Below, one piece after another: positions 44,712-45,648 of a stretch of DNA of 64,000 bases. A program made the position numbers and the translations under genes. How positions within the stretch are numbered: position 1 is the stretch's first letter; each line of letters begins with the position of its first letter. Location: positions 1,922,001-1,986,000 of the forward strand of contig JAQJZZ010000015.1 in the NCBI GenBank assembly GCA_030077755.1, written 5' to 3'. The notes below the pieces were generated by a model. It was not told where the DNA came from, did not search any database, and was given only the letters and a program-made list of their open reading frames with translations. Origin of the DNA: Filosporella fistucella (taxonomy: Eukaryota > Ascomycota > Leotiomycetes > Helotiales).

Positions 44712-45459
44712 TCTTCAAAAAGTGTAAGTAGATAAATGAGCACAAGCAAGCTAGAGGTTGACGCGAATTCTGCAAAGGAAGTTAAAGGACTGATGTCAGC
44801 ACACAATGTACCTGATGATGTGAAAGAAATATACTTAGTTTCCCCTTCCACTATAGACAATCAGAATGGAAACCTAAAAAGATAGGAATATCTCTTAAGA
44901 GGCACAGCACATATTGGATCCCAGCAGTGGAGGTAGCTAGTAAACGCGCCTCTCCACTGAAACTCTTAGTAGGTATATTCAACAAAGTCGCTGGACTGGT
45001 AGCGACAAAAACACCAATACTCGCATTTCACTAGCCATAGAATCTTTCAAGCCTCAACCACACAATTATCCACCCATATATATTGAATTAACAAAGTATC
45101 AAAAGTTGAGTCGCAAGAATGGAAGGAGCGGCGCTTGCTCTGCAAATGTTCGTACCTAGCCTTGCCAGCAAGCCGCCTCGCCTGTGCAGCGATACCTATT
45201 GTTACCATAAAGAAGACTGGAACGAGCCTTGAAGGGCTCGATGATCATTGGCGTTGCTCAGTGGTGATGACTAGATAAGGGGTTTGATGCATCTTAGTAG
45301 GGGATTTCGTTCAAAATAATAAGTATTCAAACTGATCGAGTCCCACATACTCCAGAACCAACCCCGCTCTCGTTTGACAGCATTCCCTTTCAGGCCCCAC
45401 TTCAAAGTGTTATGAATAAATCCAAATAAGCTCCTCTCCGTCACAGCCACGCAAGTTTC
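44712..45459. other. Intergenic before the tRNA gene
   Basis: 748 bp without a supportable gene between the metalloprotease and tRNA-Pro. Nothing else is recognised. Confidence 0.55.
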
Positions 45460-45618
45460 GACTCATTGGTCTAGTGGTATGATTGTCGCTTCGGGACTTA
45501 CCTCCCCTCTCTTCGGAGAGAGCTAATGTGACAGGGTAAGCTATTAAATATTCTCATATTTTAGAATATGTTTGTTAACTTTCATTCTTAGCCCCGGGTT
45601 CAAATCCCGGATGAGTCC
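45460..45618 (+). tRNA. tRNA-Pro(CGG) with two introns
   Basis: The acceptor stem GACTCAT (45460-45466) pairs fully with ATGAGTC (45611-45617), and C45618 is the discriminator base. The D arm is GTC...GAT with TAGTGGTAT between. The anticodon stem GTCGC (45485-45489) pairs with GTGAC (45528-45532), with one G-U. The anticodon is CGG at 45492-45494. The T arm is CCGGG-TTCAAAT-CCCGG (45594-45610). A 31-nt canonical intron (45496-45526), holding a CTCTC-TTCG-GAGAG hairpin, sits after position 37. A second insertion of 56 nt (45536-45591) splits the variable loop. It starts GTAAGC, ends TTCTTAG and has a TTAAC branch-like site. Removing both leaves a regular 72-nt tRNA-Pro with variable loop AGGCC. 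Confidence 0.88.
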
Positions 45619-45641: not shown

Positions 45642-45648
45642 TTTTTTT
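45642..45648 (+). terminator. RNA polymerase III terminator of tRNA-Pro
   Basis: A run of seven T residues lies 24 bp after the discriminator base, as expected for Pol III termination. The second intron contains a shorter run of only four Ts (45559-45562), which would be a weak stop at most. Confidence 0.75.

Follow-up and report, generated by a model that had tools for sequence, protein, structure and literature searches.

A GT-AG, spliceosome-type intron in a tRNA-Pro(CGG) gene of the fungus Filosporella fistucella, one of up to 16 tRNA genes with such an insert

Eukaryotic tRNA introns are removed by a protein endonuclease and ligase, and we know of no tRNA that needs the spliceosome. The closest described systems lie in other classes of structured RNA. 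The U6 snRNA of S. pombe and other fungi carries GT-AG introns in a small Pol III-type RNA, and fungal U3 snoRNA carries mRNA-type introns, almost exclusively in one stem-loop; in the part of the source available to us, U3 and U6 are given as the only small structured RNAs so far known to be often intron-interrupted, and work on U6 introns in fungi is cited (PMC5832005). In the rDNA of ascomycetes and lichens the spliceosome acts on a non-Pol II transcript; the accessible part of a study of spliceosomal introns in lichen rDNA reports that yeast removed a 57-bp one from Pol I rRNA transcripts (PMC8527467). A different precedent comes from the ectopic tRNA introns of archaea, Cyanidioschyzon merolae, and nucleomorphs, which lie off position 37/38 and often beside a canonical intron, as described in the consulted portions of two papers (PMC4090602, PMC3978253). 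Non-canonical introns are also analyzed for candidates of an archaeal search model in the available part of another work (PMC8450103). Spliceosomal introns in tRNA genes are described nowhere in the portions consulted of PMC3978253, PMC11782384, and PMC13149111, and no title or opening abstract among the open-access PMC papers listed by literature searches reports them.

The window, a 64,000-nucleotide stretch of DNA (C14:1922001-1986000), belongs to a genome of 45.8 Mb in 19 contigs. Placement in the Helotiales agrees with the window's SEC5 homologue, which shares 84-87% identity with proteins of Mollisiaceae, Cadophora, Phialocephala, and Rhynchosporium. The initial annotation proposed that a tRNA-Pro(CGG) gene in the window is interrupted twice, and reading of the sequence bears this out: removal of 31 nt at 37/38 and 56 nt in the variable loop restores a 72-nt tRNA with anticodon CGG, in which pairing is complete in the acceptor stem (7/7), the anticodon stem (5/5, one of them G-U), and the T-stem (5/5). 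The shorter segment after position 37 and the longer one between AGG and CC lie where that annotation had placed them, and the splice-site motifs, branch-like element, and internal 7-bp hairpin (ATATTCT at 45548-45554, AGAATAT at 45563-45569) that it had described within the longer one are all present (Table 1). The insertion point is given here in standard tRNA numbering.

Table 1. Features of the window gene (positions in the window) and insertion points of the 16 interrupted tRNA genes
Feature	Position	Strand	Insertion point	Remark
AAATAAG, TATA-like upstream element	45424..45430	+		by reading; 30-36 nt before tRNA-Pro(CGG)
tRNA-Pro(CGG), whole gene	45460..45618	+		
Exon 1 (acceptor 5', D arm, anticodon to position 37)	45460..45495	+		
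Canonical intron, 31 nt	45496..45526	+	37/38	parser; ARAGORN on spliced sequence
Exon 2, TGTGACAGG (positions 38 to 46)	45527..45535	+		
Spliceosome-type intron, 56 nt, variable loop	45536..45591	+	46/47 (AGG/CC)	
5' splice site GTAAGC of 56-nt insert	45536..45541	+		
Branch-like TTAAC	45575..45579	+		A at 45578, 13 nt from intron end
3' splice site TAG of 56-nt insert	45589..45591	+		end TTAG
Exon 3 (rest of variable loop, T arm, acceptor 3', discriminator C)	45592..45618	+		
T7 run, Pol III terminator-like	45642..45648	+		
Pro-CGG (window)			46/47	
Met-CAT, two genes	C13:1719246, C4:243644		46/47	
Ser-TGA			25/26	
Lys-CTT, two genes			8/9	
Arg-ACG, Arg-CCG			13/14	
Gly-GCC			12/13	
His-GTG, two genes			12/13	
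Asp-GTC, two genes			64/65	
Arg-CCT			69/70	
Pro-AGG			6/7	
Arg-TCG (probable)			3/4	

Standard tools do not recover the unspliced gene. It was missed by family scans of the window and by tRNA scans of the whole genome, including a lax RF00005 scan whose 61 matches did pick up, with weak or partial scores, Ser-TGA, both Lys-CTT genes, Arg-ACG, and the first Asp-GTC. When ARAGORN is limited to introns of at most 80 nt, the unspliced locus yields no gene, and deletion of the 56 nt brings out tRNA-Pro(cgg) with a 31-nt intron; with introns of up to 3000 nt, the unspliced locus is misread as tRNA-Arg(tcg) with a 77-nt intron. The score of the parser used throughout rises from 25.6 unspliced to 30.1 spliced.

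Nuclear tRNA genes were gathered genome-wide from the tRNA family scan, the B-box pattern GGTTCGANTCC, BLAST with twelve mature tRNAs, and further patterns, and a parser score of at least 28 was required, which gave 77 genes. The B-box pattern had 118 hits, compared with 86 in a reversed control; 82 of its first 100 places were read, the remaining 18 being earlier matches, mitochondrial, or beside L010. Left out of the 77 are the mitochondrial contig C8, candidates below 28 (among them L013, probably Val-CAC), and families of tRNA-like sequences; one of the genes kept (L106, score 28.2) is doubtful. The survey is incomplete, in that the 77 include no Val, Asn, Tyr, Gln, Gly-TCC, Gly-CCC, or initiator Met gene. 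A covariance model was built from 22 tRNAs and run on 66 loci. Two groups of tRNA-like sequences were seen along the way. Three of 129-131 nt (L014, C7:717180; L031, C11:1057641; L032, C15:1882391) have in common a long middle segment that is largely conserved, CTGGGTTCGGACTGTCTGTGA...GTGCAACATTAGGAGG. Four others (L010, C14:2021380; L082, C6:261783; L083, C6:262019; L131, C14:1835126) have related 5' parts of the TAGCTTAATGGTAAAGCG type; some stand in tandem about 240 nt apart, several have long middles, and the group is possibly a tRNA-derived repeat.

An extra insert is present in 16 of the 77 parsed genes, a share that depends on the search route, given that the second Met, His, and Asp genes came from BLAST with the mature sequences of interrupted genes, Pro-AGG was found by a pattern taken from the window gene, and the window gene itself is counted. 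Among genes with the GGTTCGANTCC B box found without that BLAST the share is 6/40, and among genes with GGGTTCRANTCCC it is 8/38. Each interrupted gene has a single extra segment, removal of which yields a full cloverleaf, and the insertions fall at nine places across the molecule (3/4, 6/7, 8/9, 12/13, 13/14, 25/26, 46/47, 64/65, and 69/70), all of them away from the canonical one. A separate 37/38 intron is parsed in 14 of the 16, and in 55 of all 77. Interruption does not extend to every Pol III gene: the 27 matches listed for 5S rRNA are all 120 nt long and uninterrupted.

The inserts are 47-58 nt long (median 50.5, n = 16) and share the signals of spliceosomal introns. Every one begins with GTNNG, 12 of them with GTAAG, and every one ends in YAG (TAG or CAG). 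YTRAY occurs in all 16 with its A 9-13 nt from the end, in the form CTAAC in 12, the motif being the best match chosen within the last 40 nt. Their lengths resemble those of host mRNA introns, of which five were placed in three window genes by protein alignment (44, 46, 46, 50, and 68 nt); only length is an independent point of comparison here, as that search already demanded GT, AG, and a branch motif and took in lengths of about 40-130 nt. Runs of five or more T are absent from all 16 inserts where 1.2 inserts with one would be expected, a difference in the expected direction of avoidance that is not significant. Fifteen further genes whose inserts are alike in signals and length take the window case beyond chance.

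For four isoacceptors the predicted insert boundaries are set by alignment alone, through uninterrupted copies in the same genome. Without its 49-nt insert, Arg-ACG is the same over 72 nt as the uninterrupted L049. Exact matches to uninterrupted genes also exist for the 5' half of Lys (37 nt; L027, L028), the 5' half of Gly (36 nt; L015, L118, L156, L157), and the 3' half of Asp (28 nt; L072 and L105, but not L086, which scores 18/28). The His copy L017 scores 24/26. L017 and L170, both His-GTG, lie on opposite strands with about 1 kb between them (C18:384113-385285), and only one of the two has the 12/13 intron. That GT...AG should flank all four sites by chance has a probability of about 3/256^4 = 7e-10 (1, 1, 1, and 3 equivalent placements, equal base frequencies). 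Treating all 16 as independent gives about 1e-35, an overstated figure, because it counts paralogues as if they were independent and because the splice rule itself decided some of the placements. When any 30-90 nt may be excised without that rule, the exact GT...AG placement is among the best in 5 of the 13 interrupted genes examined in this way; in the others the outcome is ambiguous, a few bases off, or wrong, and the top excision for Pro-CGG is among the wrong ones.

On this evidence the 56-nt insert is very probably a spliceosomal intron of the major (GT-AG) class. Its host is a nuclear tRNA gene of Pol III type and belongs to a set of up to 16 such genes found so far. The spliceosomal reading offered in the initial annotation thus gains support from the 15 like inserts, from the exact uninterrupted copies, and from the poor fit of the bulge-helix-bulge motif discussed below. 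It would represent a familiar type of intron in an RNA class for which the open-access literature searches brought up no report. The parallel with U6 extends to this very genome, whose U6 gene (L174, C7:2968184-2968282, minus strand) holds, by reading against what we take to be the mature U6 sequence, three GT...CTAA[CT]...AG inserts, which follow CATTTGG, CCCCTG, and GGATGA. Another U6-like sequence, a divergent one, lies at C6:601060-601162 (L175) and reaches 44 bits, at the Rfam cut-off. Unlike the U6 case, the inserts described here are in tRNA, occupy many genes and positions, split the internal promoter in some, and mostly coexist with a second intron at 37/38. U3 differs in not being a tRNA and in the near-confinement of its introns noted above, and rDNA in being a Pol I transcript that yields rRNA.

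Not every one of the 16 cases is equally firm. Splicing gains at least 4.5 parser points in 12, and ARAGORN returns the expected tRNA from 15 of the 16 spliced loci (the second Met is miscalled Gly) compared with 4 of the 16 unspliced (both Met genes, Arg-CCT, and Arg-TCG). Both Met genes, Ser-TGA, and Arg-CCT are ambiguous in that they parse nearly or equally well without the extra intron. Ser-TGA scores 28.5 unspliced, then with anticodon CGC, and 29.9 spliced, when it matches a Ser-AGA gene at 88% by BLAST. With these four ambiguous to the parser and Arg-TCG weak, the firm core, as judged from sequence, would be about 11 of the 16 genes, the window gene included.

The inserts might also be a mixture, most of them spliceosomal and some, such as those of Arg-CCT and Arg-TCG or of Met genes that really have one long 37/38 intron, of another kind. 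The cloverleaf of Arg-CCT is nearly complete unspliced (27.5, rising to 29.5 when spliced; 57 bits unspliced with the tRNA model R1). Arg-TCG opens with an exon of 3 nt, lacks a run of four or more T within 60 nt, and is of uncertain identity, and for both Met genes the parser slightly prefers one long 37/38 intron of 75 or 79 nt (30.8 and 30.2) to two introns (29.9). The single-intron parse, however, implies a 13-nt variable loop, and we know of no tRNA-Met with one; it also has the anticodon stem pair with part of the diverged insert, whereas ATCCAAAGG, the exon that serves in the two-intron parse, is identical in both genes. In Arg-CCT, splicing mends a G1-G72 mismatch. We consider a mixture unlikely, if a good deal less so than the explanations that follow.

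Another explanation is that the interrupted genes are pseudogenes and the mature tRNAs come from intact copies. Uninterrupted copies are indeed present for Lys-CTT, Gly-GCC, Asp-GTC, His-GTG, Arg-ACG, Pro-AGG, and Arg-TCG, and short insertions in the D or T arm of eukaryotic tRNA genes, mostly in one of many synonymous genes, are treated as supposed pseudogenes in the portion of a review available to us (PMC4090602). For other tRNAs the incomplete survey gave no such copies. A tally of other tRNA-Pro(CGG) genes, raised in the initial annotation, yielded no uninterrupted one among the 34 BLAST candidates scored, and the same candidates included none for Arg-CCG, Arg-CCT, or Ser-TGA, all these counts being lower bounds. 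Two elongator Met genes were found by BLAST with the mature sequence (E<=10) and by an A-box pattern with at most three mismatches, and both are interrupted; no uninterrupted one appeared in the BLAST or among the three of six A-box hits that were read. The four non-Met hits of that pattern share a different A box, and one of them is an Ile-AAT gene (L042).

Comparison of genes interrupted at the same position also speaks against decay. The mature parts of the Met pair are 95% identical, and their acceptor stems differ by two changes on each side that compensate and keep the pairing; their inserts are 58% alike, as are shuffled ones (58%). For the Lys, His, and Asp pairs, identity is 100% in the mature parts but 66-74% in the inserts, compared with 57-59% when these are shuffled. 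Because exons are kept while inserts drift, the pseudogene reading is disfavored. No exon decay is visible in the parser scores either, which run from 28.7 to 31.3 for spliced genes and from 28.2 to 32.5 for uninterrupted ones, both after the cut-off of 28. A run of four or more T lies within 60 nt downstream of 15 of the 16 interrupted genes (12.5 when shuffled) and 60 of 61 uninterrupted ones (45.7), and AATAAG lies 15-70 nt upstream of 4/16 (0.2 when shuffled) and 15/58 (1.2), respectively; both classes therefore look like the same Pol III-type genes. That the interrupted genes are pseudogenes seems very improbable. As for the origin of the inserts, relatedness was examined in seven pairs: the Asp pair (z 4.6) and Arg-ACG with Arg-CCG (z 3.4) stand out, the other five are unremarkable, and a single recent mobile family of the introner-like kind is not apparent among these pairs.

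Cutting by the tRNA splicing endonuclease, the alternative named in the initial annotation, would make the inserts non-canonical tRNA introns like those of archaea and C. merolae. Archaeal introns do occur at 3/4, 25/26, and 45/46 among other places, according to the part of the source consulted (PMC4090602). The introns of archaea and C. merolae, however, are described with a bulge-helix-bulge and the endonuclease, whereas in the present genes the motif is no commoner than expected by chance and the inserts carry splice-site signals. The pairing that had been noted between the flanks of the Pro-CGG insert is there in part, with three of the four positions of the central helix paired, as they are in Gly-GCC and the first His-GTG gene; it is not general among the 16 genes. 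The motif's 4-bp central helix between two 3-nt bulges is complete at none of the 16 splice sites, and allowing seven shifts raises this to 2/16, where random site pairs give 2.5/16, so that bulge-helix-bulge introns do not hold as a general explanation. Furthermore, the GT, branch, and AG signals are common to all 16 inserts, whose lengths match those of mRNA introns, and to our knowledge the tRNA endonuclease uses none of these signals. It is hard to credit that this enzyme cuts out the inserts. The large catalytic core of group I or II self-splicing introns has no counterpart in inserts of 47-58 nt, and an Rfam gathering scan of the window was without a match.

A spliceosomal origin of the inserts carries implications for the order of processing. 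From the anatomy of the genes we infer transcription by Pol III, removal of the extra intron by the spliceosome, and the order of the steps. Pol III would transcribe the interrupted gene, and the spliceosome would remove the GT-AG intron from the primary transcript; the RNA could then fold as a tRNA, its ends would be trimmed, and the tRNA splicing endonuclease and ligase would remove the separate 37/38 intron. The endonuclease removes a 37/38 intron from the folded tRNA body, and the spliceosome would have to act first because an interrupted acceptor, D, or T arm blocks formation of that body. Two splicing machines would accordingly act on one RNA in 14 of the 16 genes. Initiation by Pol III itself needs explaining, because 7 of the 16 inserts, at 8/9, 12/13, or 13/14, lie in or at the edge of the A box, which spans positions 8-19; these genes are probably transcribed with the help of the upstream element, the B box, and the A-box half that is left.

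To judge from the gene sequences, making these tRNAs appears to need the mRNA-splicing machine. We regard it as likely, with rather less assurance than the assignment of the window insert itself, that in this lineage the spliceosome is a regular and essential tRNA-processing machine, serving about one in 5-7 tRNA genes, including both elongator Met genes found, at scattered positions, with most of the pre-tRNAs needing two unrelated machines in fixed order and with split internal Pol III promoters tolerated. If some tRNAs of a fungus, perhaps including elongator tRNA-Met, depend on the spliceosome, the division of labor between endonuclease and spliceosome would be breached. Short, structured transcripts of Pol III type would then be acceptable to the spliceosome even where the tRNA part of an exon is as small as 6-8 nt, or 3-4 nt if the weaker cases hold. 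Since recognition by the endonuclease needs a folded tRNA body, such genes pose an ordering problem that can be tested. Interrupted and uninterrupted copies with identical exons and no reading frame offer a clean setting in which to study the gain and loss of spliceosomal introns, and gene finders that seek eukaryotic introns only at 37/38 may miss such genes in related fungi. If the spliceosome does serve these tRNAs, translation in this organism would depend on it directly through tRNA and not only through mRNA.
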